Of a stretch of 64,000 nt of DNA, positions 22,511 to 54,632 are shown piece after piece. The position numbers and the translations under genes were made by a program. Position 1 is the first letter of the stretch. Every line of letters starts with the position of its first letter. Location of the stretch: NCBI RefSeq assembly GCF_029910235.1, contig NZ_CP112878.1:62001-126000 (forward strand), given 5' to 3'. The stretch comes from Pseudanabaena galeata CCNP1313. Its GTDB lineage: Bacteria; Cyanobacteriota; Cyanobacteriia; Pseudanabaenales; Pseudanabaenaceae. Below the pieces are notes generated by a model. The model did no database searches, had not been told where the DNA came from, and saw only the letters and a program-made list of their open reading frames with translations.

Positions 22511-22707
22511 AGTCACCTCCATAGGTGGCAAGAACCTTGAAAACCGCATTATTACGTTGACCTATGGAGGTCGCGCTCTCCATAAGGGTTCTGGCTTTTA
22601 TATTTGTCGTTTTTTTGCAAATTTGGCAAGTTTTTTGACTATATAAATGACCTATGGAGATCGACCCTATTAAAAGCTTTACTGTGTAAGCCTCAAAAAT
22701 GAGAGGG
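22511..22707 (+). promoter_or_regulatory. CRISPR leader 1 (class A motif)
   Basis: The leader has three copies of a class-specific motif: inverted ACCTCCATAGGT (22515-22526), direct ACCTATGGAGGT (22560-22571) and direct ACCTATGGAGAT (22650-22661, ending 46 bp before the first repeat). The near-invariant box ACCTTGAAAACCGCATTA lies between copies 1 and 2. A TTGACT hexamer (22635-22640) precedes copy 3 by 9 bp and may be a -35 element for the array transcript. Confidence 0.75.
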
Positions 22708-22970
22708 GTTTCACGCCTAACACCCCGCAAGGGGACGGAAACGAAATTAAAGACGGACGAGTAGCTATTAGCTGGTGCAGTATTGTTTCACGCCTAACAC
22801 CCCGCAAGGGGACGGAAACATTGTTTGTAGGGTTGACCGTTAAACAATTGTTCGCTCCAGTTTCACGCCTAACACCCCGCAAGGGGACGGAAACTCCCTA
22901 ATTGGCTATAGACAAAATCACCAATCTCCTCAATAGTTTCACGCCTAACACCCCGCAAGGGGACGGAAAC
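22708..22970 (+). CRISPR. CRISPR array 1: 4 repeats, 3 spacers
   Basis: Four identical 35-bp repeats start at 22708, 22785, 22860 and 22936. Each begins GTTTCACGCCTAACA and ends with the shared core CCCCGCAAGGGGACGGAAAC. Spacers are 42, 40 and 41 bp. The CCCC-GCAA-GGGG hairpin and the last eight bases ACGGAAAC are as expected for Cas6 processing with an 8-nt 5' handle. Orientation (leader left, + strand) follows from the leader and from this handle. This is the shortest array and the only one with this repeat variant. Confidence 0.97.
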
Positions 22971-23263
22971 GTAAGGGAAAGAGAGAAGAATGAAGATCGA
23001 AGAATGAAGAAAAAAGAAATATGAAATTTCTGCAATAATATAAAATTGAATTCTTGATTTTCAATCTTCATTTTTCCGCCTTTATTCTTCCCTCTTCAAT
23101 CTTCATTTTTCCGCCTTTATTCTTCCCTTTTCAATCTTCATTTTTCCGCCTTTATTCTTCTCTCTTCAATCTTCCTTCTTCCGCCTTTATTCTTCCCTCT
23201 TCAATCTTCCTTCTTCCGCCTTTATTCTTCCCTCTTCAATCTTCCTTCTTCCGCCTTTCTTAT
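22971..23263. repeat. Array 1 trailer: purine/pyrimidine element with 35-bp tandem repeat
   Basis: The purine-rich arm (GAAGAATGAAGATCGAAGAA and similar) starts directly after the last repeat. It is followed by an AT-rich centre and a pyrimidine arm that has expanded into about 5.7 copies of a 35-bp unit, starting at 23061, 23096, 23131, 23166, 23201 and 23236 (TCAATCTTC…CCGCCTTTATTCTTC). Frames read through it are low-complexity and not genes. The same element follows every array in the window. Confidence 0.8.
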
Positions 23264-23264
23264 T

Positions 23265-23633
23265 ATGTTTGACCTACGTGATCGCACCAAAAGCTTTGCA
23301 TTGAGAATTGTGAAATTATATACATCACTGCCCAAAAGCACCGAAGCCCAAGTATTAGGAAAACAAGTACTGAGAAGTGGAACATCAGTTGGGGCGCATT
23401 ATCGAGAAGCAACCCGTGCGCGATCCAATGCGGAATACATCAGTAAAATTGAAGTTGGACTGCAAGAGCTAGAAGAAAGTATTTACTGGCTAGAGCTATT
23501 AGCTGAAGCTGAGATTATCAAAGCATCTAACTTAGCCAACCTCATTCAAGAAGCGGAAGAACTGATTGCGATTTTTGTGACTTTGGTGAAAAAAGCAAAA
23601 GATAAAGTTGGAAGAGCGAAGGCGGAAGAGTGA
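23265..23633 (+). CDS. Four-helix-bundle protein (S23/IVP, Avd-like)
   Basis: The 122-aa product matches the four-helix-bundle (23S rRNA intervening-sequence) protein pattern: FALRIVKLYTSLP, then VLGKQVLRSGTSVGAHYREATRA, then EYISKIEVGLQELEESIYWL. The same fold includes Avd, the nucleic-acid-binding partner of the reverse transcriptase in diversity-generating retroelements. It lies 156 bp upstream of the RT-Cas1 gene with a copy of the purine/pyrimidine element between them. Its family is widespread in cyanobacteria, so proximity alone does not prove a role. A similar gene beside the second RT-Cas1 makes the association more interesting. Confidence 0.85.
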   Translation: MFDLRDRTKSFALRIVKLYTSLPKSTEAQVLGKQVLRSGTSVGAHYREATRARSNAEYISKIEVGLQELEESIYWLELLAEAEIIKASNLANLIQEAEELIAIFVTLVKKAKDKVGRAKAEE

Positions 23634-23789
23634 AGAAAAGATGAAGAGCAAGAAAAATATATAAATGCTAAAATTGTCGCGATCGCCTAAAACTATATTC
23701 TTAAATTTCATTCTTCATTCTTCGATCTTCCGCCTTTATTTTTCCCTCTTCGACCTTCCGCCTTCCGCCTTTATCCTCCTCCTCCTCTG
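23600..23789. repeat. Purine/pyrimidine dispersed element between four-helix gene and RT-Cas1
   Basis: A purine arm (GGCGGAAGAGTGAAGAAAAG) overlaps the end of the four-helix gene. A centre with AAATGCTAAAATTGTCGCGA is nearly identical to the copy at 28330-28370, and a pyrimidine arm (CTTCGATCTTCCGCCTTTA) runs up to the RT-Cas1 start. It belongs to the same family as the array trailers. Confidence 0.7.
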
Positions 23790-25883
23790 ATGCAGAATTT
23801 TAGTGATAAATTCCTCAGTCCAGAAAACTTTCAGCTTGCATGGGAACGGGTTGCGGCAAAAAATGGATGTGCAGGTGTCGATCGCGAAACGGTGGCTCAT
23901 TTTGCTAAAAATGCTGAAGCATATTTAAGTCGATTGAGGCGATCGCTTGCTTCGGGACATTATCACCCAATGCCATTGCGGCAGTTATTCATTCCTAAAA
24001 AAGCTGGTGGATGGCGAGAGTTAGGCGTACCGACAGTTCGCGATCGCATTGTCCAAAATGCGTTGTTAAATATTCTGCATCCATTGCTAGAGCCGCAGTT
24101 TGAGGCTTGTAGTTTTGCCTATCGTCCTGGGCGATCGCATTTGATGGCAGTTAGGCAGATCGCCCATTGGCGCGATCGCGGCTATGAATGGGTACTTGAT
24201 GCTGATGTTGTGCGCTATTTTGAGAATATTTTATGGCAGAGGTTACTTGACGAGTTGGCAGAAAGGCTTAACGCGCCTGAAGTTCAATCTCTAATTTCTG
24301 ATTGGCTATCGGTGGGAGTTCTATCCAAAGAGGGACTAATATTTCCTCAAAAGGGAATTGCTCAAGGTTCGGCTATCTCACCGATATTGGCGAATGTTTA
24401 TCTGGATGACTTTGATGAAATTGTTTCGGCAACTGGGTTAAAGCTGGTGCGTTATGCTGATGATTTTGTGGTGATGTCGCGCAGTCAGAAGCGGATTGTT
24501 GAGGCGAAGGATGAAGTTGCAGAATTAATGAATGGAATGGGGCTGCAATTACATCCTGATAAAACCCGAATTGTGGATTTTGATCATGGGTTTCGATTTT
24601 TGGGTCATGCCTTTGCGGGGAAGGTGATTGTTAAGATGGAAGGCGGAAGAGAGAAGAGGGAAGAGGATATGCGGGGGGCGGTTGATCCTTTTCCAGATGG
24701 GCAATTGGTTTATAGCGATCCGCAGGTAAGACCAACGCAGATGCAGAAGGCAATGTTGGAGGCTCTCAAAAGTTCGGCTGAGCCAATTCCGCCGCCGCTA
24801 TTTGTTGTTTTGGGATACAGTCTGCGTGAGACGAAACCTGTCAAGATAGAGTCCGATGAAGCGATCTGGACTACTGGTATGTCAACACTTTATCTGGTGC
24901 AGCAGGGTGCAACGCTACGAAAGGAGCAGGGACGTTTTTTGGTGCAGCCGCTCAAAGAGTCGGCATTGGAGATCCCGATCGCTGAAGTCGAGTTAGTCTT
25001 GGTATTTGGCAATATTCAGCTAACCACCTCAGCGATCGCGGCTTGTTTAGATGCGAAGATTCCTGTGATCTTTTTGACGCAGATGGGGGAATATAAGGGG
25101 CAACTCTGGAATTCGGAGTTTTACGATCTAGTTTCGGAAGAGGCACAGTGGCAAAGGCGTTTGGATGTTGCTTTTCAGCTAGAAACGGCTAGGGCGATCG
25201 TTTGGGGTAAGTTGATGAACTCGAAACAGTTGTTGTTGCGGCTAAATCGCAAGCGGCAATTGGAGGAGGTGACGACAGCGATCGCGGGAATTACGTCTGA
25301 TATTGAGTCAGTGGAGATGGCTGAAACTTTGGAAAGCTTGCGAGGTTATGAGGGAATTGCGGCAAGTCGATATTTTGCGGCGTTGGGGCTGTTGATTACG
25401 AATGAGGGTTTTAGTTTGACAGGACGCAATCGCCGCCCGCCGAAAGATCCTGTTAATTCGTTACTGAGCTTTGGTTATACGTTGCTTTATAACAATGTGT
25501 TGAGTTTGATTTTGGCGGAGGGGTTAAATCCTTATTTGGGAAATTTGCATCGTAGCGATCGTAAGGAGACGCATTTGGCTTTTGACCTGATGGAGGAGTT
25601 TAGATCGCCTGTGGTTGATACGTTGGTAATGACTTTGGTAAATAAGCAAACCCTTAAGCCTACTGACTTTACTTGGTTTGATAAGGATGGGGGGGTATAT
25701 CTGACCGATATGCCAAGACGAATTTTTCTAAAGGCTTTTGAGGATCGGATTAATGAGTTGGTTTCTCACCCAGATGTACAAGCAAAGGTGTCCTATCGGA
25801 GGGCGATCCAGTTACAAATTCGGCGGTATAAAAAATGTTTGCTTGGCGAAATATCCTATGAGGCTTTTTTACGAGCTGTGTGA
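23790..25883 (+). CDS. cas1: RT-Cas1 fusion, module A (type III spacer acquisition)
   Basis: Cas1 with Cas2 integrates new spacers; RT fusions of this kind are known to allow acquisition from RNA. The 697-aa protein has a group II intron-like reverse transcriptase in residues about 5-280 (GWRELGVPTVRDRIVQ, DADVVRYFENI at 137-147, QGSAISPILANVYL, YADD at 222-225, FRFLGHAF). A Cas1 domain runs from about 355 to the end (MSTLYLVQQGATL, Glu521 in GYEGIAAS, His587 in GNLHRSD, FDLMEEFRSPVVD). The usual RT motif FFDN is YFEN here, but both catalytic Asp pairs remain. No Cas6 domain is fused. cas2 follows after 27 bp. A low-complexity linker (GGREKREEDMR) joins the two domains. Well supported. Confidence 0.95.
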   Translation: MQNFSDKFLSPENFQLAWERVAAKNGCAGVDRETVAHFAKNAEAYLSRLRRSLASGHYHPMPLRQLFIPKKAGGWRELGVPTVRDRIVQNALLNILHPLLEPQFEACSFAYRPGRSHLMAVRQIAHWRDRGYEWVLDADVVRYFENILWQRLLDELAERLNAPEVQSLISDWLSVGVLSKEGLIFPQKGIAQGSAISPILANVYLDDFDEIVSATGLKLVRYADDFVVMSRSQKRIVEAKDEVAELMNGMGLQLHPDKTRIVDFDHGFRFLGHAFAGKVIVKMEGGREKREEDMRGAVDPFPDGQLVYSDPQVRPTQMQKAMLEALKSSAEPIPPPLFVVLGYSLRETKPVKIESDEAIWTTGMSTLYLVQQGATLRKEQGRFLVQPLKESALEIPIAEVELVLVFGNIQLTTSAIAACLDAKIPVIFLTQMGEYKGQLWNSEFYDLVSEEAQWQRRLDVAFQLETARAIVWGKLMNSKQLLLRLNRKRQLEEVTTAIAGITSDIESVEMAETLESLRGYEGIAASRYFAALGLLITNEGFSLTGRNRRPPKDPVNSLLSFGYTLLYNNVLSLILAEGLNPYLGNLHRSDRKETHLAFDLMEEFRSPVVDTLVMTLVNKQTLKPTDFTWFDKDGGVYLTDMPRRIFLKAFEDRINELVSHPDVQAKVSYRRAIQLQIRRYKKCLLGEISYEAFLRAV

Positions 25884-25910: not shown

Positions 25911-26186
25911 ATGCTTGTACTAGTGGTTTACGATATTGCTGATGATAAGCGTCGCCTCAAGTTGTCAAATTTTCTCGAAGGTCATGGGCGTAGGGTTCAG
26001 GAAAGTGTGTTTGAGTGTTTTGTAAGTTTGGAGCAGATGAAGAAGCTCCATGATCAGGTCAAAAAACGAGTTAAACCTGATGTTGATAATGTGCGTTTTT
26101 ATTGGATACCGTCTGATGCTTTGCCAAAGGCTTTAGCGATCGGTAGTGCGTTGCCAAAACCGCCACCAAATGTTTACATTATTTAG
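25911..26186 (+). CDS. cas2: Cas2, module A
   Basis: The 91-aa protein has the Cas2 ferredoxin-like fold signature: LVLVVYDIADDKRRLKLSNFLEGHGRRVQ at the start, with YDI Asp at the catalytic position, and ESVFECFV. It forms the central dimer of the Cas1-Cas2 integrase. It follows RT-Cas1 module A by 27 bp and precedes leader 2, so it completes an adaptation cassette. A fragment of a very similar gene is found at 30152. Confidence 0.95.
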   Translation: MLVLVVYDIADDKRRLKLSNFLEGHGRRVQESVFECFVSLEQMKKLHDQVKKRVKPDVDNVRFYWIPSDALPKALAIGSALPKPPPNVYII

Positions 26187-26228
26187 GTTGACTTTTTTGT
26201 TTTTAGCCTTTAGTCTGGTTTGTATCGT

Positions 26229-26424
26229 CAAATCGACGCACCCCCCTCGAACCTTGAAAACCGCATAATTACGTTGAGGTGTGTCGATGGCATACCTAGC
26301 AAGGGTTCCAAGATGTCCGTTTTCTTGAAAACCTGTCAATAAGGCTTTCTTATTGAGACTAAAAAGAGGTGCGTCGATTGACCCTTTTGAAAGGTTTGCT
26401 GGGTATGGCTTAAAAATTGCAAGG
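26229..26424 (+). promoter_or_regulatory. CRISPR leader 2 (class B motif)
   Basis: The architecture is the same as in leader 1 with an unrelated motif: inverted ATCGACGCACC (26232-26242), direct GGTGTGTCGAT (26278-26288) and direct GGTGCGTCGAT (26368-26378, ending 46 bp before the array). The invariant box ACCTTGAAAACCGCATAA starts at 26251. TTGAGA (26353-26358) precedes copy 3 by 9 bp. Confidence 0.75.
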
Positions 26425-27961
26425 GTTTCATATAAATTTCCCCGCAAGGGGACGGAAACCTGTTCGTCGTGCACTTTCCTGTGCTTACGCCACTGGTAGT
26501 TTCATATAAATTTCCCCGCAAGGGGACGGAAACACTTAGATAACGTTCGTTATCTAAGTCCGTAATCCAGCTTGTTTCATATAAATTTCCCCGCAAGGGG
26601 ACGGAAACGTTAAGGTAAAAAATGGCTTGATTACCTGATTTTGTAGGACTGTTTCATATAAATTTCCCCGCAAGGGGACGGAAACTTTTAAAAATAAAGT
26701 AGGTTACATTTGTCAAGGCTCCTCCGAGTTTCATATAAATTTCCCCGCAAGGGGACGGAAACAGCGTTTGACCTGCGCGTGCCTTTTCCATGACGGAAGA
26801 GTTTCATATAAATTTCCCCGCAAGGGGACGGAAACAATCATCGGCATCATATTGGAGAAATCTCCTTAAGCGAGACAAGTTTCATATAAATTTCCCCGCA
26901 AGGGGACGGAAACAGTATTCTTTGATACCCCCCAAGAGACCACCAGAATGCAACCGTTTCATATAAATTTCCCCGCAAGGGGACGGAAACTTTTCGCCAG
27001 TCACATTTCCGTTGGTTGCGCGATTGGTGTGTTTCATATAAATTTCCCCGCAAGGGGACGGAAACTAAAAATCTACGAACTTTTGAGTAAGCGAAAACTG
27101 GTCAGTTTCATATAAATTTCCCCGCAAGGGGACGGAAACCTGATTCCGTATAGTTTTCAGTTCGAGTCCCAGATTGGTACCGTTCGTTTCATATAAATTT
27201 CCCCGCAAGGGGACGGAAACTAAAAACAGTTTCGATAGCAGGTTTTTTATCTGCTTGATTTGGTTTCATATAAATTTCCCCGCAAGGGGACGGAAACCCT
27301 GCATTAGTAGCTCAAGATTGATTGAGATGCCAAATGTGTTTCATATAAATTTCCCCGCAAGGGGACGGAAACGTAACAACGATATCTCCTACTCCTTGCC
27401 AATTGGCAGAAGTTTCATATAAATTTCCCCGCAAGGGGACGGAAACAAATCAGTCTTTATATTAGCCCTGTATTCACAGAGCTTGTTGTTTCATATAAAT
27501 TTCCCCGCAAGGGGACGGAAACAGTTAATCTGCCTATTATCGCACGTAGTTTCCGTTGTCCTGTTTCATATAAATTTCCCCGCAAGGGGACGGAAACTTC
27601 TTCGTCAGATTCACCTAGTATAATCAATGCTTGGTTTCATATAAATTTCCCCGCAAGGGGACGGAAACTCAGAAGCAAATACTGTAAGATTAGTTAAAAC
27701 TAACTGTTTCATATAAATTTCCCCGCAAGGGGACGGAAACCCTCATTCTTGATCGACGTAACCGATTGGTCACGTTGTTTCATATAAATTTCCCCGCAAG
27801 GGGACGGAAACAAATATTGCACAACGATCAAAGTTACGATGCATATTAGTGTGGTTTCATATAAATTTCCCCGCAAGGGGACGGAAACTGTGTAAAGAAA
27901 CATAAAAAAGACCATGCTCAGAAATCGTTTCATATAAATTTCCCCGCAAGGGGACGGAAAC
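26425..27961 (+). CRISPR. CRISPR array 2: 21 repeats, 20 spacers
   Basis: Twenty-one 35-bp repeats start at 26425, 26499, 26574, 26651, 26728, 26801, 26879, 26956, 27031, 27105, 27186, 27263, 27338, 27412, 27488, 27563, 27634, 27706, 27777, 27854 and 27927. Each begins GTTTCATATAAATTT and ends in the shared core CCCCGCAAGGGGACGGAAAC. All copies look identical, which suggests recent growth or homogenisation. Spacers are 36-46 bp. The spacer at 26534-26573 is itself a near-perfect palindrome (see findings). This is the largest array and lies directly after adaptation module A. Confidence 0.97.
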
Positions 27962-28451
27962 GATGATCAAGGAAAAAGGCAAAAGTAGAAAGTAAAAAGT
28001 GATAGCAGAGATCGCTAAAACCAAAGGAACAATTTAAAAATCTTACTTTTCCCATTATCTTGCTGTTTCAGCATAACCGTCAATATTCTTACCGCCACAA
28101 GCCTTATTCCAGCGTTGTATATTGTCATTAAGTAATACTTATTGCAAATACACTTAGCCATGAAACTCTTGCCTAGAGAGCATTTCAGAGATAACGTGAA
28201 AAGTAAGGGTAAAAATTTGTCCTGTATTTTTCCTTTTTCCTTTTTCCTTTTAAATTTTTCCTTGAAAACTGGGGACGGAAACTTAAGAGAAAGAGAGAAG
28301 AATGAAGATCGAAGAGTGAAGAAAAGATGAAGAGCAAGAAAAGTATAGAAATGCTAAAATTGTCGCGATCTCAAAAAAATTCATTTTTCATTCTTCGATC
28401 TTCCGCCTTTAAATTTCCCTCTTCGATCTTCATTCTTCCGTCTTTAAAAAG
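27962..28451. repeat. Array 2 trailer region with repeat remnant and purine/pyrimidine element
   Basis: No gene is supported in this 490-bp gap. A 12-nt remnant of the repeat 3' end, GGGGACGGAAAC, stands alone at 28271-28282. It is followed by a full purine/pyrimidine element to about 28445 (purine arm GAAGAATGAAGATCGAAGAG; pyrimidine arm CTTCGATCTTCATTCTTCCG). The stretch 27962-28270 is AT-rich and unassigned; the weak frame at 28142 is not convincing. Confidence 0.7.
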
Positions 28452-28691
28452 ATGAACCTAAACACCATTCAGCAAGAAATTGCAATGCTACCACCTGAAG
28501 CGCAACAAGTGATCTTTGAGCTAGTAAGCGTTCTCAAAAATCGCTATCATGCTAACCAACCAACCTCCGTAAAAAATAAAAGCCAAAATTGGTCGGACTT
28601 TATCGGTTGCATGGAAGCCGAACCAGACCTATCAAAAAATTACAAAACCTACTTAAGCAAAGAACTCGATTTAAAATATGGTGATCGTTGA
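28452..28691 (+). CDS. Antitoxin of a PIN toxin-antitoxin pair
   Basis: This 79-aa protein begins with a helix typical of DUF2281-like antitoxins (IQQEIAMLPPEAQQVIFELVSVLKNR) and has a charged C-terminal tail (KTYLSKELDLKYGD) suited to wrap around the toxin. Its end overlaps the start of the PIN toxin gene by 14 bp, which is usual for such pairs and couples translation. The protein would neutralise the toxin and probably repress the operon. Confidence 0.7.
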   Translation: MNLNTIQQEIAMLPPEAQQVIFELVSVLKNRYHANQPTSVKNKSQNWSDFIGCMEAEPDLSKNYKTYLSKELDLKYGDR

Positions 28692-36595: not shown

Positions 36596-36639
36596 GATTT
36601 GTTCTAATACTGTTAGCTGTAGCTATATCAGCCTATTGA

Positions 36640-36875
36640 CGGATGGTTTCAGATAATTTACACTAGCGTCAGCGCTGATCAGTTCTAGGGGTCAGCCAGT
36701 ACCTTGAAAACCGCATAACTTCGTTGACCCCAAGAACTCGCTCTCCCAGTAAGGGTTTGAGCTTGTTTTGAAAGAGCCTTATTGATAGCTATTATCAATA
36801 ATTTGACAATTTTCTTACCCCCAAGAATTTTCGTGTTGTCAAATGCACTCTAGGCAAGCCCTCCAGAAGCCGAGG
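36640..36875 (+). promoter_or_regulatory. CRISPR leader 3 (class C motif)
   Basis: The motif copies are inverted AGTTCTAGGGGTCA (36681-36694), direct TGACCCCAAGAACT (36725-36738) and direct ACCCCCAAGAATTT (36817-36830, ending 45 bp before the array). The box ACCTTGAAAACCGCATAA starts at 36701. TTGACA (36803-36808) lies 8 bp before copy 3. The sequence is nearly the same as leaders 4 and 5. Confidence 0.75.
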
Positions 36876-37813
36876 GTTTCAAAATATTTACCCCGCAAGG
36901 GGACGGAAACAAATAGCAGTATAGACACCGCCATTTAAAGTATTGTTTCAAAATATTTACCCCGCAAGGGGACGGAAACGTGACTATGTCACCCCAGGCT
37001 TCCCACTTTTTTACGAGTTTCAAAATATTTACCCCGCAAGGGGACGGAAACAAGCCCAAGTGCCTCCATAAAAGTTGGACGTTCTCGTGTTTCAAAATAT
37101 TTACCCCGCAAGGGGACGGAAACAGTTAGCATTTCCACAAAGAGATTACCAGTTAGATGTTTCAAAATATTTACCCCGCAAGGGGACGGAAACTCAAACC
37201 CACGTTGAACATAGGCACAGGCTTTTGTTTCAAAATATTTACCCCGCAAGGGGACGGAAACCCTCCATTCACCACCATTAGCATTTGCTAATGGCCAGTT
37301 TCAAAATATTTACCCCGCAAGGGGACGGAAACAATTGGAATACACCATAAAGAAATTGTAGCAGGTTTCAAAATATTTACCCCGCAAGGGGACGGAAACA
37401 CACAGCTACTAGTGCTGTGAAAACGGTAAGAAGTTTCAAAATATTTACCCCGCAAGGGGACGGAAACATTACTCCTGCTTCGACAACCCCTTTTGCTTCT
37501 TGTTTCAAAATATTTACCCCGCAAGGGGACGAAAACTTTCCACCGTTATTACCGCTACCAGAGATTTGGTAGTTTCAAAATATTTACCCCGCAAGGGGAC
37601 GGAAACAGTTTAAACTTAGCATTTGGGTACCCCTTCAAATCGTTTCAAAATATTTACCCCGCAAGGGGACGGAAACCCACGAAGTTGATTCGTGGTTTAG
37701 TCATCCTAGGTTTCAAAATATTTACCCCGCAAGGGGACGGAAACTGTACCCGCGGTTGAGCCATTTACAACTAGTTTGGTTTCAAAATATTTACCCCGCA
37801 AGGGGACGGAAAC
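36876..37813 (+). CRISPR. CRISPR array 3: 14 repeats, 13 spacers
   Basis: Fourteen 35-bp repeats start at 36876, 36945, 37017, 37089, 37159, 37227, 37298, 37365, 37433, 37502, 37572, 37642, 37710 and 37779. Each begins GTTTCAAAATATTTA and ends with the shared core. The tenth (37502) has one substitution near the 3' end (ACGAAAAC in place of ACGGAAAC), inside the predicted crRNA handle. Spacers are 32-38 bp, clearly shorter than in arrays 1 and 2. Two spacers are hairpin-like (37262-37297 and 37677-37709). Confidence 0.97.
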
Positions 37814-38310
37814 GAGGGAGAAAGGTCGAAGAATGAAGATCGAAGAGGGAAGAAAATGCGAAGAAATAAGAAATATTAATGGCAACAAACAAAAACAAAA
37901 GATGATAATTTATTGAAAACTTTGAGCCAAGTTCTCTCTTCATTTTTCCCTCTTCAGTCTTTAGAGATCGGGGACGGAAACGGGAGGGAAAGACGGAAGA
38001 AAGAAGATTGAAGAGAAAAAATGCGAAGAAATAAAAAATTACTGTAATCGAATACAATTGATTGCTTAAATTTCATTCTTCGTTCTTCATTTTTCCGTCT
38101 TTAGGTCGCGGGGACGGAAACGAGGGAGAAAGGTCGAAGAATGAAGATCGAAGAGGGAAGAAAAGGCGAAGAAACAAGAAAAATATTAGTGACAATAAAA
38201 GAAAACAAAAGATGATAATTTACCGAGAACTTAGAGCCAAATTCGATCTTCAGTCTTCCCTCTTCCACCTTTAAATCTCCCTCTTCCGCCTTCATTTTTC
38301 AGCCTTGGAA
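37814..38310. repeat. Array 3 trailer, element present three times with repeat remnants
   Basis: Three purine/pyrimidine units follow one another, each preceded by the last 12 nt of the CRISPR repeat (GGGGACGGAAAC at 37802-37813, 37970-37981 and 38110-38121). The first and third units are almost identical over their first 50 bases. No gene is supported here. The csm operon promoter must lie in the last 90 bases before 38402. Confidence 0.75.
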
Positions 38311-45337: not shown

Positions 45338-45573
45338 CGGATGGTTTCAGATAATTTACACTAGCGTTATCGCTGATCAGTTCTAGGGGTCAGCCAGTAC
45401 CTTGAAAACCGCATAACTTCGTCAACCCCAAGAACTCGCTCTCCCAGTAAGGGTTTGAGCCTATTTTGAAAGAGCCTTATTGAAAACTATTCTCAATAAT
45501 TTGACAATTTTCTTACCCCCAAGAATTTTCGTGTTGTCAAATGCGCTCTAGGCTAGCTATCCAGAAGCCGAGG
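45338..45573 (+). promoter_or_regulatory. CRISPR leader 4 (class C motif)
   Basis: Motif copies are at 45379-45392 (inverted AGTTCTAGGGGTCA), 45423-45436 (direct CAACCCCAAGAACT) and 45515-45528 (direct ACCCCCAAGAATTT, 45 bp before the array). It differs from leader 3 at only a few positions, including upstream GATGGTTTCAGATAATTT, so the two arose by duplication. Confidence 0.75.
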
Positions 45574-46227
45574 GTTTCAATTTTTTTACCCCGCAAGGGG
45601 ACGGAAACAGAAACCAATTTCTGGAGTGCCATTAACATAAAGTTTCAATTTTTTTACCCCGCAAGGGGACGGAAACGTTTGTTTTAGTTATTTCTTCCAG
45701 TCAAACAAAAGTTTCAATTTTTTTACCCCGCAAGGGGACGGAAACGTAACGCTGTAGATGGCAAATAGTGAATATTTTACCGTTTCAATTTTTTTACCCC
45801 GCAAGGGGACGGAAACGGAGTGGTACCACTTCCCATTGTGTTGCCAATGGTTTCAATTTTTTTACCCCGCAAGGGGACGGAAACCCGTAAAGATTTTCAA
45901 TAAAGCCAGTTGGAACGGTTTCAATTTTTTTACCCCGCAAGGGGACGGAAACAGGCATAAACACGTATTGACCAACATTTTCTAAAGTTTCAATTTTTTT
46001 ACCCCGCAAGGGGACGGAAACATTTTGAAGTTCAAGTGGCAGATTTACCACAGGTTTCAATTTTTTTACCCCGCAAGGGGACGGAAACACTCATCGAGGT
46101 TTGTAGTCAATGCCATCGAAGGAGTTTCAATTTTTTTACCCCGCAAGGGGACGGAAACTTGAGCTATTAATATACAGATTATGAATGCACTTGTTTCAAT
46201 TTTTTTACCCCGCAAGGGGACGGAAAC
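45574..46227 (+). CRISPR. CRISPR array 4: 10 repeats, 9 spacers
   Basis: Ten 35-bp repeats start at 45574, 45642, 45711, 45782, 45850, 45918, 45987, 46054, 46124 and 46193. Each begins GTTTCAATTTTTTTA and ends in the shared core. Spacers are 33-36 bp. The array directly follows the csm operon, and the repeat type is identical to array 5. Confidence 0.97.
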
Positions 46228-46507
46228 GCAGGAGAAAGAGGGAAGAAAGAAGATTGAAGAGAGAAGAAAAGATAAAAAACAAGAAAACTGTAATGATGAG
46301 AAATAAGTAGGACTTACGCAAAAATGCCCTGAAAGCCTCATTTTGCCGTAGGGGCAATTCATGAATTGCCCCTACGGCTCGTTCTTTTGCGTAAGTCCTA
46401 ATAAGAAATAATGATTTACCAAAAAATTCAATCCAAATTCGATCTTCAGTCTTCCCTCTTCCGTCTTTAATTTCAGTCTTCCCTCTTCGATCTTCCGTTT
46501 TCCCTGC
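46228..46507. repeat. Array 4 trailer (purine/pyrimidine element interrupted by a MITE)
   Basis: The purine arm starts right after the last repeat (GGAGAAAGAGGGAAGAAAG), and the pyrimidine arm (CGATCTTCAGTCTTCCCTCTT) ends near 46500. The element is split at 46308-46400 by an insertion. No gene is supported in this 280-bp gap. Confidence 0.7.
46308..46400. mobile_element. 93-bp palindromic MITE with 5-bp target duplication
   Basis: The terminal inverted repeats TAGGACTTACGCAAAA and complement enclose a second palindrome built on GGGGCAATTCATGAATTGCC. The target duplication ATAAG is at 46303-46307 and 46401-46405. Both the palindrome and these ends are of a kind common in cyanobacterial genomes. 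It carries no gene and would need a transposase in trans. Confidence 0.85.
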
Positions 46508-50140: not shown

Positions 50141-52111
50141 ATGAAAATTGCCATCGAAGAATTGGCGATCGCTTGGAATCTTGTCCAAAAGGGCAGCCGT
50201 TCCGCAGGGATTGATGGGATCACCGTTGATTTATTTGCGGGAATTGCTGCTGAGCAACTTCAAACGATCCAACAACATATCTACCAAGAGCGGTATGTGT
50301 TTAGTCCTGCTAAGGGTTTTTATTTACCTAAAAAAGACGGTGGTCAAAGGCTAGTCGGCATTCCTACAGTGCGCGATCGCGTAGTCCAACGCTTTATGTT
50401 GCAAAGGGCTTATCCCAAGCTCGATCGCGCCATTAGCAAAGCTGCCTTTGCCTATCGTCCTAGTTACGGAACTCTAGATGCGATCGAACGAGTGGCGGAA
50501 GCCTATCACCATCAACCTGCATGGGTAGTCAAAGCTGATATCCAAAGCTTTTTCGATAACCTTTCTTGGACGTTACTTTGCGATCGCATTGAGAAGCTCA
50601 AACTTGCTGCGATGTTGCATCACCTAATGATCCAGCAACTCAAGGCAGGAATTGTGATTAATGGCTACTTTACCCGTCCTAATAAAGGGATTTTACAAGG
50701 TGGCATTCTCTCTGGCGCACTAGCAAATCTCTACCTCAGTCAGTTTGATCGCCAATGTTTGAATGCTGGCATCAATCTCGTGCGCTATGGCGATGACTGT
50801 CTAGCGGTCTGCCACAGTCCCATACAGGCAAATCGCACGATTTCACTGATGGCGGAATGGTTAGAAGCCATTTACTTACGCCTTCATCCAGAGAAAACCC
50901 ATATTTTTGCGCCCGATCAGGAGTTTACGTTTTTGGGCTATCGCTTTTGTGGCGGTGAAATCTATCCCCCCGAACGCAAGACCTCCACCGAGGCTAAGCC
51001 CAAACCATCACCGCAGCCAAGTGCTGTCCGTCCGCTCATCTGTGGCATCGTCAAGGGCGATCGCCAATCTAGCAGTAAATCTCATCAAGAATATTGGAAA
51101 GAAGGTATGTCTACACTCTATGTCAGCGATCAAGGTGCTTATCTCAAAGTGCAACAGCAACAGTTTCAAGTCTTTCACCAGCAGCAATTGCGCTGTAATG
51201 TGCCGATTAATCGGGTCAGTCATGTGGTTTTGTTTGGTAGCTGCACGATGTCTCATGGTGCTGTGAGTTTGGCTTTGCAACATCGGATTCCTGTGATGTA
51301 TTTGTCTAGCAATGGGCGCTATTTTGGAAGATTGCAAACCGCAAATCAGGCAAAAGTTGAGTATCTATCCCAACAGGTTTTGCATTCCCATGATCCTGTT
51401 TTTGTACTCACTCAGGCAAAAAGTATTGTGGCAGGCAAAATCCATAATTCACGGATTGTCTTACAGCGTCTCAATCGCAAACGCAAGACAGAGATGGCAA
51501 CCCATGCCATTAGTGAATTGGCGGAGTCAATCCAAAGTATCCCGACTATTGAATCCGTGGAATCTTTGCTTGGGGTTGAAGGTCATGCGGCAAATTTGTA
51601 CTTTCAAGCTTTTGCTTCTCTGCTCAATGGCAAGTTTGAATTTGAAAAGCGAACTCGCCGCCCACCCACCGATCCAATTAACAGTCTCTTGAGTTTGGGC
51701 TATACCCTGCTTTCCCAAAATGTACACTCGATGATTGAAGCGATCGGTTTGCATACGCACTTTGGTAATTTGCATACGCCACGCCCCAACTTACCTGCCT
51801 TGGTTTGTGACTTGATGGAGGAGTTTCGCGCTCCTGTAGTTGATTCATTTGTGGCTTATTTGATCAATTCCAATATCTTCTCCCCAGAAGATTTTACGCC
51901 TCCCGATGCGCGAGGTGGTGTGTATCTCCATCCCGATGGACTGAAGCGTTTCTTGAAGCATTGGGAAGAGAAACTGGCGACAGAGGTTGTGCATTTGCAT
52001 ACGGGCTATAAGGTCAGTTATCGCCGTTGTATGGAGTTACAGGTTTGGGAATATGTTGCTTGCCTGATTGGTGAGCAAGCAGTATACCGTCCGATGAAGT
52101 GGGATAAATAG
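50141..52111 (+). CDS. cas1: RT-Cas1 fusion, module B
   Basis: The 656-aa protein is laid out like module A. The RT domain is in about 1-275 (LVGIPTVRDRVVQ, KADIQSFFDNLSW at 131-143, QGGILSGALANLYLSQF, YGDD at 216-219, FTFLGYRF). A Pro-rich linker follows, then Cas1 from about 320 (MSTLYVSDQGAYL, Glu480 in LGVEGHAAN, His545 in GNLHTPR, VCDLMEEFRAPVVD). The RT active site is YGDD, not YADD as in module A, and the two proteins diverge throughout, so this is not a recent duplicate. No Cas6 fusion. cas2 follows after one base. Identity is certain; spacer acquisition from RNA is plausible from the family. Confidence 0.95.
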   Translation: MKIAIEELAIAWNLVQKGSRSAGIDGITVDLFAGIAAEQLQTIQQHIYQERYVFSPAKGFYLPKKDGGQRLVGIPTVRDRVVQRFMLQRAYPKLDRAISKAAFAYRPSYGTLDAIERVAEAYHHQPAWVVKADIQSFFDNLSWTLLCDRIEKLKLAAMLHHLMIQQLKAGIVINGYFTRPNKGILQGGILSGALANLYLSQFDRQCLNAGINLVRYGDDCLAVCHSPIQANRTISLMAEWLEAIYLRLHPEKTHIFAPDQEFTFLGYRFCGGEIYPPERKTSTEAKPKPSPQPSAVRPLICGIVKGDRQSSSKSHQEYWKEGMSTLYVSDQGAYLKVQQQQFQVFHQQQLRCNVPINRVSHVVLFGSCTMSHGAVSLALQHRIPVMYLSSNGRYFGRLQTANQAKVEYLSQQVLHSHDPVFVLTQAKSIVAGKIHNSRIVLQRLNRKRKTEMATHAISELAESIQSIPTIESVESLLGVEGHAANLYFQAFASLLNGKFEFEKRTRRPPTDPINSLLSLGYTLLSQNVHSMIEAIGLHTHFGNLHTPRPNLPALVCDLMEEFRAPVVDSFVAYLINSNIFSPEDFTPPDARGGVYLHPDGLKRFLKHWEEKLATEVVHLHTGYKVSYRRCMELQVWEYVACLIGEQAVYRPMKWDK

Positions 52112-52112
52112 G

Positions 52113-52391
52113 ATGTTTTATCTAGTTTGCTACGACATCGTTAACGATCGCCGTCGTACTAAAGTCTCAAACTTTTTGCAGGGGTATGGACTGAGGGTAC
52201 AGAAGTCGGTATTTGAGTGTGTGCTGTCTCCCGATCAGTACAAAACGGTACAGAAACGTGTTCAGAAGCTGATTAAGGCGCAAGAAGACCAGATTCGGTT
52301 TTATCCCATGTCCCCACGACATCGACAGTTAGTAAAGATTGTGGGGATGCAACCTGATTTTCAGGTTGATGATGTGGCTTTTATTGTCTGA
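52113..52391 (+). CDS. cas2: Cas2, module B
   Basis: The 92-aa Cas2 has LVCYDIVNDRRRTKVSNFLQ at the start and KSVFECVLSPDQY. It starts one base after the RT-Cas1 stop, so the pair is translationally coupled. It forms the integrase core with Cas1. It differs clearly from module A Cas2, supporting an independent origin. Confidence 0.95.
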   Translation: MFYLVCYDIVNDRRRTKVSNFLQGYGLRVQKSVFECVLSPDQYKTVQKRVQKLIKAQEDQIRFYPMSPRHRQLVKIVGMQPDFQVDDVAFIV

Positions 52392-52483: not shown

Positions 52484-52539
52484 AAAACAATTCTTAATCG
52501 TTTCTAATCGAAAACTAAATTTAACAATATGAGGTGGTT

Positions 52540-52929
52540 ATGTCACGGGACTTTATTACTAAGTATCAGGAATTGCGGGTATATCAATTGGCGTTTGAGG
52601 CGGCGATGTCTCTGCGTGAATTGGAATATGAGTTACCTGAACGTGAGAAAACTTTGCTGGCTGAACCGATGTTGCTTGCCGCAAGGTTAGTTTTTATTCA
52701 TGTGGCGGCGGCTTGGCACAAACGCTATGCTTATCGCGCTTTTATTACTGGTATCAGTGATGCGGCATCTCATGCGGCTAAAGCTCAGTCATGGATTGAG
52801 TTTGCTGTGACCTGTGGCTATTTCGATGCGGAAAAAGGGCAGGAGATCTATCGTCAATATGATGAGATTATTACGGCTCTAGGGCGGATGTCTGAGAATG
52901 CCAGTGCGTGGCTGGTGCGAGGTAAATAG
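52540..52929 (+). CDS. Four-helix-bundle protein (S23/Avd-like) beside adaptation module B
   Basis: I chose the ATG at 52540, which has GAGGTGG just before it, over the GTG at 52534. The 129-aa product begins FITKYQELRVYQLAFEAAMSL, the typical first helix of four-helix-bundle proteins. LAARLVFIHVAAAWHKRYAYRAFITGISDAASHAAKAQSWIEF follows. It differs from the copy near module A but has the same fold signature. It is 148 bp after cas2 and directly before the DUF2325 gene (2 bp). Family is likely; a role in adaptation is inferred. Confidence 0.75.
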   Translation: MSRDFITKYQELRVYQLAFEAAMSLRELEYELPEREKTLLAEPMLLAARLVFIHVAAAWHKRYAYRAFITGISDAASHAAKAQSWIEFAVTCGYFDAEKGQEIYRQYDEIITALGRMSENASAWLVRGK

Positions 52930-52931
52930 TG

Positions 52932-53279
52932 ATGTTGCAGCGCTCTCAGTTAAAAATAGCGATCGTGGGTGGGCATCCCAGTATTTATCGCGAGGTCAGC
53001 CATGCTTTGCGGAAAGGTTACGGTTTATGTGATTGGGTTGAGTTGCCTTCGTTTAGTAAGCTCGGCATTGGAGGCAGCAAAATCAAGGCAAAGATCCTCT
53101 ACTGCGATCTCATTTTTATCCTGACGGGCTATATGCGTCATGGTCAAACTGATGCAGTTGCGGCGTTAAAGCGATCAGGGGCGATTTCAGGTAAGGTGAT
53201 TTTGCTTTGCTGTCGGGGCAAAACTGGTGTGATGCGGGCTATTTTGCATCATGTTGACGTTTTGTGTGAGGTGGCATAG
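52932..53279 (+). CDS. DUF2325-type protein beside adaptation module B
   Basis: The 115-aa protein has the pattern of DUF2325: IAIVGGHPSIYREVSHAL at the N-terminus, AKILYCDLIFILTGYMRHGQTDAV in the middle and GKVILLCCRGKTGV near the end. That suggests a small Rossmann-like fold. It starts 2 bp after the four-helix gene stop (an alternative GTG at 52929 overlaps it), so they form one operon. It ends 10 bp before leader 5. Function of the family is unknown to me. Confidence 0.7.
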   Translation: MLQRSQLKIAIVGGHPSIYREVSHALRKGYGLCDWVELPSFSKLGIGGSKIKAKILYCDLIFILTGYMRHGQTDAVAALKRSGAISGKVILLCCRGKTGVMRAILHHVDVLCEVA

Positions 53280-53289
53280 ACTATATCTC

Positions 53290-53492
53290 ATAGACCCAGT
53301 TCTAGGGGTCAGCCAGTACCTTGAAAACCGCATAACTTCGTCAACCCCAAGAACTCGCTCTCCCAGTAAGGGTTTGAGCCTGTTTTGAAAGATCCTTATT
53401 GATAGCTATTCTCAATAACTTGACAATTTTCTTACCCCCAAGAATTTTCGTGTTGTCAAATGCGCTCTAGGTAAGCCCTCCAGAAGCCGAGG
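53290..53492 (+). promoter_or_regulatory. CRISPR leader 5 (class C motif)
   Basis: Motif copies are at 53298-53311 (inverted AGTTCTAGGGGTCA), 53342-53355 (direct) and 53434-53447 (direct, 45 bp before the array). Identity with leader 4 begins abruptly at AGTTCTAGGGG, so the upstream limit of the functional leader is close to the first motif copy. Confidence 0.75.
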
Positions 53493-54632
53493 GTTTCAAT
53501 TTTTTTACCCCGCAAGGGGACGGAAACTATCATCGACGACTACTGTATCAGCTTTTACAGGCGTTTCAATTTTTTTACCCCGCAAGGGGACGGAAACTGC
53601 TGTGCTTGTCCGTTAAGGCTACTGTGTTTCAATTTTTTTACCCCGCAAGGGGACGGAAACCAACACAAGATTGCGAAGATTTTTCCATATTTATTATGGT
53701 TTCAATTTTTTTACCCCGCAAGGGGACGGAAACGGATGAGTATGGGAACGCAGACACAGACACAGGTTTCAATTTTTTTACCCCGCAAGGGGACGGAAAC
53801 ATTGAACGTAAAGAAAATTGACTACCATGCTAAAGTTTCAATTTTTTTACCCCGCAAGGGGACGGAAACTTTGTGAGATTTTGAAAACAGAATAAGAAAA
53901 AAGTTTCAATTTTTTTACCCCGCAAGGGGACGGAAACCATTGCCTTGAAGATCAACAGTCACGGTCATGTGTTTCAATTTTTTTACCCCGCAAGGGGACG
54001 GAAACGTAATTGAAAAAAGTTAAACCTTTCTCATCGAGTTTCAATTTTTTTACCCCGCAAGGGGACGGAAACCATAGGATGATACAGAAGCAATCAAGAT
54101 TAACAAGTTTCAATTTTTTTACCCCGCAAGGGGACGGAAACTGAAGATAGCAACTAAATTTAAGTGTTTTAAGAAAAAAGTTTCAATTTTTTTACCCCGC
54201 AAGGGGACGGAAACTTTGATGAAGTTCCAATTCCAGGTTGCAAACGGTTTCAATTTTTTTACCCCGCAAGGGGACGGAAACTTACCAGTTACGGTGTAGA
54301 TACATCCTGCCTTTCGTTTCAATTTTTTTACCCCGCAAGGGGACGGAAACTCTCGCCACTTAGTATTTAAATCATTAAGATCAACAGTTTCAATTTTTTT
54401 ACCCCGCAAGGGGACGGAAACATTGGTTACCCTCATAAGGTAAGGTCAATACACGATAGTTTCAATTTTTTTACCCCGCAAGGGGACGGAAACAATACGA
54501 TCATTGCTGATTTATCGTATAAAGAAGTTTCAATTTTTTTACCCCGCAAGGGGACGGAAACAATCACTGTCTTTGACAGGGGAGTACGGAAAAGCTAGTT
54601 TCAATTTTTTTACCCCGCAAGGGGACGGAAAC
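53493..54632 (+). CRISPR. CRISPR array 5: 17 repeats, 16 spacers
   Basis: Seventeen 35-bp repeats start at 53493, 53563, 53626, 53699, 53766, 53835, 53903, 53971, 54038, 54107, 54180, 54247, 54316, 54387, 54459, 54527 and 54598. The repeat is the same as in array 4 (GTTTCAATTTTTTTA plus shared core). Spacers are 28-38 bp. It directly follows adaptation module B and the DUF2325 gene. Confidence 0.97.

Follow-up and report, generated by a model that had tools for sequence, protein, structure and literature searches.

Five CRISPR arrays, all on the plus strand, and two families of RT-Cas1 fusion lie within the 64-kb stretch of Pseudanabaena galeata DNA analysed here (the window; positions are counted from its first base). 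What are the words repeated in the leaders of these arrays for, and which protein might read them? A preliminary description of the DNA had claimed that one motif occurs three times in each leader and had offered three readings of it, namely a recognition code read by a Cas1-Cas2 or accessory protein, an operator near the array promoter, and an RNA hairpin in the leader transcript.

Layout of the five leaders

In each of the five leaders, an inverted copy of a word (I) is followed by a conserved box and then by two direct copies of the word (D1 and D2) (Table 1). Counted from the first repeat in a 13-base register, I starts at -193, -193 and -195 in leader 1, leader 2 and leaders 3-5, respectively, D1 at -149, -149 and -150, and D2 at -59 throughout; the start positions in the preliminary description are correct to within 2 bp. 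The best combined scores of I, D1 and D2 in leaders 1-5 are 31, 31, 29, 29 and 29 of 33. None of these was matched by any of 150 dinucleotide shuffles of the same leader, the top shuffles scoring 27, 29, 27, 27 and 26, and the claim of a motif occurring three times is thus borne out in all five. Over 300 bp, leaders 3 and 4 share 91% of their sequence, and leader 5 closely resembles them; these near copies count as nearly one observation, so that the window alone supplies about three independent cases.

The words of the five leaders had been sorted into classes A and B, both of which flank RT-Cas1 family 1, and class C (leaders 3, 4 and 5). They had been called entirely different between classes, which is wrong, since the direct copies over many leaders share a skeleton, often with GA at the start and GAT at the end. 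The pairing between inverted and direct copies, said to be kept each time, is near-perfect, but D1 of leader 2 has one mismatch to I (G-U if in RNA) and in all three class C leaders I and D1 are mismatched at the centre. A blastn search with leader 1 against plasmids returned no record covering more than 80% of the query, most of the listed matches being short, and Rfam gave no match at the gathering score in the 64-kb window.

Table 1. Leader elements, first repeats and adaptation genes in the window
Feature	Position	Strand	Basis
Leader 1 inverted copy I (plus-strand sequence ACCTCCATAGGT)	22515..22526	-	
Leader 1 boxA-like box ACCTTGAAAACCGCATTA	22534..22551	+	box pattern
Leader 1 direct copy D1 GACCTATGGAGGT	22559..22571	+	
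Leader 1 direct copy D2 GACCTATGGAGAT	22649..22661	+	
Array 1 first repeat	22708..22742	+	
RT-Cas1 family 1 (candidate reader of the class A and class B words), lying between arrays 1 and 2	23790..25883	+	Pfam RVT_1, Cas_Cas1
Cas2 adjoining RT-Cas1 family 1	25911..26186	+	Pfam CRISPR_Cas2
Leader 2 promoter-like TTGACT-17-TAGTCT, 5' of I (prediction)	26188..26216	+	read from sequence
Leader 2 inverted copy I	26232..26244	-	
Leader 2 boxA-like box	26251..26268	+	box pattern
Leader 2 D1 GAGGTGTGTCGAT	26276..26288	+	
Leader 2 D2 GAGGTGCGTCGAT	26366..26378	+	
Array 2 first repeat	26425..26459	+	
Leader 3 promoter-like TTGACG-17-TACACT (prediction)	36636..36664	+	read from sequence
Leader 3 inverted copy I	36681..36692	-	
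Leader 3 boxA-like box	36701..36718	+	box pattern
Leader 3 D1 GACCCCAAGAACT	36726..36738	+	
Leader 3 D2 ACCCCCAAGAATT	36817..36829	+	
Array 3 first repeat	36876..36910	+	
Leader 4 inverted copy I	45379..45390	-	
Leader 4 boxA-like box	45399..45416	+	box pattern
Leader 4 D1 AACCCCAAGAACT	45424..45436	+	
Leader 4 D2 ACCCCCAAGAATT	45515..45527	+	
Array 4 first repeat	45574..45608	+	
RT-Cas1 family 2 (candidate reader of the class C word), 5' of array 5	50141..52111	+	Pfam RVT_1, Cas_Cas1
Cas2 adjoining RT-Cas1 family 2	52113..52391	+	Pfam CRISPR_Cas2
Leader 5 inverted copy I	53298..53309	-	
Leader 5 boxA-like box	53318..53335	+	box pattern
Leader 5 D1 AACCCCAAGAACT	53343..53355	+	
Leader 5 D2 ACCCCCAAGAATT	53434..53446	+	
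Array 5 first repeat	53493..53527	+	

Other features accompany the arrays. The interval from Cas2 to array 5 encodes a protein of the 23S_rRNA_IVP family and one with weak likeness to DUF2325 that falls below the Pfam cut-off (52534-52929 and 52929-53279), and relatives of these proteins recur in 4 of 19 family-2 loci (L317-L320). A further IVP-family protein (23265-23633) precedes RT-Cas1 family 1. Low-complexity blocks of the GAAGA/TTCTTC type lie near array ends (23025-23260, 23679-23813, 28352-28486, 37814-38300 and 46215-46500; our families D3, D5, D8 and D9). Lone GGGGACGGAAAC repeat ends within these blocks, at about 28270, 37970 and 38110 (family D12), look like array remnants.

The box between the inverted and direct copies

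The box ACCTTGAAAACCGCAT is followed by TA in leader 1 and by AA in leaders 2-5. Its 17-base pattern, with up to three mismatches, has five matches in the window, all of them in leaders, against 0.49 expected. With one base changed (ACCTTGAAAACTGCATAA), the leader box precedes 23S rRNA in other cyanobacteria. Among 30 fetched loci of the box (up to one mismatch), 12 have a match to the 23S start downstream; the 23S pattern was not found in the window's own genome, where a box before its own rRNA is unconfirmed. We take the 23S-preceding box to be boxA, given its matches before 23S. Since the leader box is one base off it, we read the leader box as boxA as well, an element known in CRISPR leaders, and it is best read as a boxA antiterminator, which would be transcribed and bound by NusB-S10.

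An element named Box A is described in cyanobacterial 16S-23S spacers (PMC12967839), and, according to Stringer et al. (as cited in PMC7862264), boxA elements in CRISPR leaders favour transcription of the array; a boxA passage was not found in the available part of PMC3161822. The work of Stringer et al. would account for the box between I and D1, with its single-base difference from the 23S box, but not for the I and D copies. In arrays beside other RT-Cas1s the box has diverged (CTGAAACCC...TCGTT) and the triple is kept, so that box and triple are separable. The box that the preliminary description called invariant probably has a function separate from that of the copies. We rejected the idea that the box belongs to the code: besides its likeness to the rRNA boxA, it is found about 35-40 bp before arrays of the short-leader type. 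A promoter-like sequence, TTGACA-17-TAnnnT, lies upstream of I, its mean score over the leaders being 9.0 versus 7.7 for shuffled sequences, and the best -10 falls mostly at box-48 to box-40. TTGAC before D1 is probably not a -35 element, no -10 being seen by eye in the leader sequences.

Spread, covariation and spacing of the copies in cyanobacteria

Box contexts were collected from an exact-box scan of genome contigs, from three whole-genome searches and from fetched loci. The whole-genome searches gave matches in 47 of 386, 50 of 217 and 37 of 388 genomes, in overlapping sets, the first of them allowing one mismatch and thereby including rRNA spacers. We obtained at least 236 distinct box contexts (up to two mismatches), 142 of which have a detectable array. 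Among the 236 listed, 94 without a detected array and 8 at another array distance were set aside, leaving, among the matches listed, 134 distinct cyanobacterial leaders with the box at a window-like distance from the array. These leaders reduce to 98 unique I/D1/D2 sets, 85 of which match in both I-D1 and D1-D2 (at least 9 of 13 positions). At least seven unique sets have a D2-like D1 but no matching I (L036, L268, L295, L026, L116, L205 and L209). The D words are diverse, including GACTGGTGTCGAT, GAGGTGTGTCGAT, GAGATGCGTCGAT, GACCTATGGAGAT, GACCCCCTCAGAT, ACCCCAAGAACT and others.

Among 40 fetched cas1 neighbourhoods, 30 contain at least one array with the layout, and no such leader was found in the other ten (L322, L324, L325, L330, L333, L335, L336, L337, L338 and L343). 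We listed 34 leaders by hand from these neighbourhoods and the window, omitting D matches that looked like chance, arrays 3 and 4 of the window, and layout-bearing leaders without a close cas1 (L323, two in L328, and L329). In 32 of the 34, the position of I relative to D1 is -43 to -45. The repeats of the 34 are of several unrelated kinds. The layout of inverted and direct copies is thus confirmed as real and general among cyanobacterial leaders.

Arrays with short leaders are found beside stand-alone Cas1 genes whose products are 37-39% identical to the Synechocystis I-D Cas1 (L357, L358, L363, L364, L367, L368 and L371). Here a GCGCAA-like word occurs twice, 100-101 or 78 bp apart, with no I and with a box-like sequence near -37. 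Single pairs of this type, at 9-10 of 12, are marginal by our estimate, so the evidence is the sharing of the word across loci. The Synechocystis I-D leader (CRISPR1) has two 8-base TTGCCAAA copies 103 bp apart, plus GAACCTTGAAAA. In Synechocystis 6803, a tractable laboratory strain, CRISPR3 (III-B, stand-alone Cas1) has an I/D1/D2-like leader on pSYSA (L316:34838-35102), in which I is accompanied by two 8-base D copies with a spacing of 79 bp. Since no more than 9 of 12 positions agree between these D copies, this case leans on I and the shared context. CRISPR2 of the same strain has only a box near -37.

The copies vary together. A mutual-information scan took in 119 leaders out of the 134, with an effective number of 80.6 (252 columns, pairs at least 4 apart), and its top eleven corrected pairs all lie within I, D1 and D2. 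Nine of them involve word positions 3 and 4; the remaining two, at positions 8 and 6, connect D1 with D2. We also exchanged copies between leaders inside the same genome, using 33 multi-leader genomes with 94 leaders. Agreement between D1 and D2 is 9.29 of 10 within the genomes' own leaders versus 7.94 after swapping, with corresponding values of 8.15 versus 7.28 for I-D1 and 8.21 versus 7.34 for I-D2; for each of the three pairs, the own-leader agreement was reached by 0 of 2000 swaps. Copy matching is therefore specific to each leader even inside one genome, and the covariation that had been claimed from the window holds beyond it.

The distance between D1 and D2, counted in 124 of the 134 leaders, is 69 (1 leader), 80 (45), 81 (1), 89 (3), 90 (49), 91 (23) or 93 bp (2). 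That is, 122 of the 124 fall at 69, 80-81 or 89-91 bp and none at 82-88 bp. Other Cas1 lineages have spacings of 81, 90-92, 79, 100-103 and 78 bp. A period of 10-11 bp fits 11 hand-picked lineage spacings (R 0.84, p 0.001), a fit that is exploratory because few of the length changes are independent. Much of the DNA separating D1 and D2 is poorly conserved. From the start of D2 to the end of repeat 1, the distance is 92-96 bp in 114 of 124 leaders (those with a recognised repeat end). A second shared element (approximately GTAAGG) lies 23 bp after the start of D1 and 37 bp after that of D2; the 14-bp difference is not a helical step and counts against D1 and D2 being docking sites. On balance, the D1-D2 steps of about 10-11 bp point to DNA, not RNA.

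Cas1 lineages and the possible role of the D words

The distance between D words correlates with that between the Cas1 proteins (Mantel r 0.693, p 0.0002) in 28 of the 34 hand-listed leaders, two without a close linked Cas1 and four near-duplicates having been dropped. The correlation is 0.615 with repeat distance held constant (partial Mantel, p 0.0002), while repeat distance itself gives 0.45 alone and 0.218 (p 0.003) given Cas1. Within the two families, the correlation between Cas1 and motif is 0.54 and 0.27, and it is 0.20 in both with the repeat held constant. Linked inheritance explains part of the association. At position 4 of the D word, all 30 family-2 copies carry C, and 24 of the 26 family-1 copies carry T or G. 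Both exceptions come from L321 (G718), where the word is of the family-2 type and the nearest Cas1 of family 1; the same contig also has a family-2-like Cas1. The D words track the Cas1 family also for RT-Cas1 arrays with unrelated repeats. Where Cas2 was found (16 of 17 family-1 and 11 of 19 family-2 loci), it splits in the same way as Cas1, so that the link does not single out the reading subunit.

RT-Cas1 was rejected as the partner of every boxA leader, as many genomes of family f7 have such leaders but no close RT-Cas1 among the matches listed. Among these same matches, G030, G421 and G460 have single Cas1 matches at 34-37% identity, and G386, G473 and G729 have none at E<=1e-20. Since G421 carries three D words with one listed Cas1 match, assigning a single word to each Cas1 would be an oversimplification. 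We also rejected a linked accessory gene shared by the leaders: translated array repeats aside, every ORF cluster is limited to 7 or fewer of 43 leader loci. Neither RT-Cas1 nor a WYL regulator is a proven reader everywhere.

Of the three readings in the preliminary description, the recognition code read by Cas1-Cas2 has the most support, as the word follows the Cas1 family, with the repeat held constant too, and the D1-D2 spacing is stepped. D1 and D2 are probably DNA docking sites that address each Cas1-Cas2 integrase to its own arrays. Lying about 150 and 59 bp before the first repeat and stepped on the helix, they would be recognised by Cas1-Cas2 (here RT-Cas1-Cas2), either directly or via a close partner. 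The leader would bend, and an integrase held at D2 and D1 would thereby be positioned on the leader-repeat junction. The inverted copy, which lies 44 bp from D1 in most of the lineages where it is present, may be a third site in many leaders, though not in all. The boxA between I and D1 would be a separate antiterminator that prevents RNA polymerase from stopping within the array. That the word tracks the integrase type suggests that each integrase finds its own array by reading it; as the word differs by Cas1 lineage, we propose that it could serve as an address per enzyme in a cell with several integrases.

Alternatively, the copies might be three repressor or activator sites 3' of the array promoter, phased for looping and bound by a class-specific regulator, WYL or other. 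We consider such an operator unlikely. The promoter-like sequence upstream of I would put the copies at or after the start site, as suits it, and looping between sites is also compatible with the stepped spacing. WYL homologues occur more often in genomes with the box (54 of 80) than in those without an exact match to it (31 of 78), a contrast blurred by diverged-box triple leaders in some of the 78 (for example G419 and G420; loci L339 and L340). On the other hand, 26 of the 80 box-bearing genomes have no WYL match, and the WYL regulator was rejected as a universal reader of the D words on this ground. With up to one mismatch, the D words of the window occur in leaders only, save for two class C near-matches (16743 and 56941), each within an ORF, and none lies at a cas or WYL promoter of the 64-kb window. 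These observations weaken the operator. The near-constant distance from D2 to the repeat, the tracking of the Cas1 family by the D word and the ceiling of 7 of 43 loci for any ORF cluster also speak against it.

A hairpin in the leader transcript, with I paired to D1 (boxA in the loop) or to D2 and controlling antitermination or processing, seems improbable to us. Stems between I and D1 fold in leaders 2-5, in keeping with the near-perfect complementarity of the copies, and the fold z-scores of leaders 1-5 are -1.8, -1.2, -4.1, -2.7 and -2.1; yet the I-D1 stem is not in the best structure of leader 1, and some leaders have no matching I. In the small RT-Cas1-linked set, transitions between I and D1 are wobble-compatible in six cases versus two, and mismatches are about equal for I-D1, I-D2 and D1-D2 (21, 19 and 23). 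In the boxA set, by contrast, the wobble excess is unclear, with 20.7 compatible changes from I to D1 versus 15.6 that are not (weighted), or 21 versus 26 unweighted (85 of 98 triples). D1 and D2 differ there by 45 weighted mismatches, against 110 for I-D1 and 112 for I-D2 (positions 3-12). RNA pairing is disfavoured as the main driver because, in this set, there is no clear wobble excess and the direct copies agree better with each other than I does with either. The stepped D1-D2 spacing also argues against the hairpin, which is thus weakened as a reading, while the stems in leaders 2-5 and the RT-Cas1-linked set, where D1-D2 agreement shows no such difference, still favour it. Finally, duplication or conversion of linked copies with no selected function is very improbable: closely related leaders do share words (leaders 3 and 4 being an example), but matches of about 13 bp persist in both orientations, at near-fixed distances, in distant cyanobacteria and beside different repeats.

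Docking of Cas1-Cas2 on leader motifs has precedents. Leader motifs guiding Cas1-Cas2 are known in outline, and are said to correlate with the adaptation strategy (PMC12259127). In types I-E and I-F, upstream motifs or an integrase anchoring site 5' of the first repeat likewise help Cas1-Cas2 on a bent leader, and in type I-F the leader is folded and Cas2 has two leader-binding sites (PMC12259127). The leaders described here differ in having two direct copies and often an inverted copy of one word, a word that varies between arrays of one cell, and RT-Cas1 partners. Synechocystis has no IHF homologue, and motifs in cyanobacterial I-D leaders enhance spacer uptake, one of them resembling the integrase anchoring site (PMC10212523). 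Those I-D leaders share with ours a length of about 200 bp, and three motifs (I-III) raise uptake (Kieper 2019, via PMC10212523); the available part of that source describes no matched covarying copies. In the I-A system of Sulfolobus islandicus, acquisition is affected by a distal as well as a proximal leader site, the distal motif (-143 to -94) belonging to Csa3a and the proximal one (-25 to +7) to Cas1 (PMC9456107). Those are two unlike motifs for two proteins, whereas here the sites are copies of one word. An RT-Cas1 fusion acquires spacers from RNA (PMC5513706), and in the available text of Silas 2017 on RT-Cas1, the word 'leader' occurs once, as general background. Matched, array-specific I/D1/D2 words or RT-Cas1 leaders are not described in the literature searched, which does not take in the main surveys (Santiago-Frangos 2021; Buyukyoruk 2025) or Kieper 2019.

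If integrases dock at D1 and D2, the word becomes readable, its partner family is predicted and the spacing follows a rule, which swaps of the 13-bp word can test. The analysis also separates the boxA element from the recognition sites within one compact leader. Knowledge of what RT-Cas1 needs in a leader would help the study and re-targeting of such systems. The finding bears on two questions that we judge to be open, namely how leaders are recognised without IHF and by what means an integrase distinguishes its own array in multi-CRISPR cells. As a more tentative extension, the words might form a heritable address that can be re-coded, each Cas1 or RT-Cas1 lineage reading its own D word at two phased sites and a concerted change of all copies switching the word. 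Several integrases, RNA-sampling RT-Cas1s included, might in this way each build up a memory bank of their own inside a single cell, free of cross-talk.
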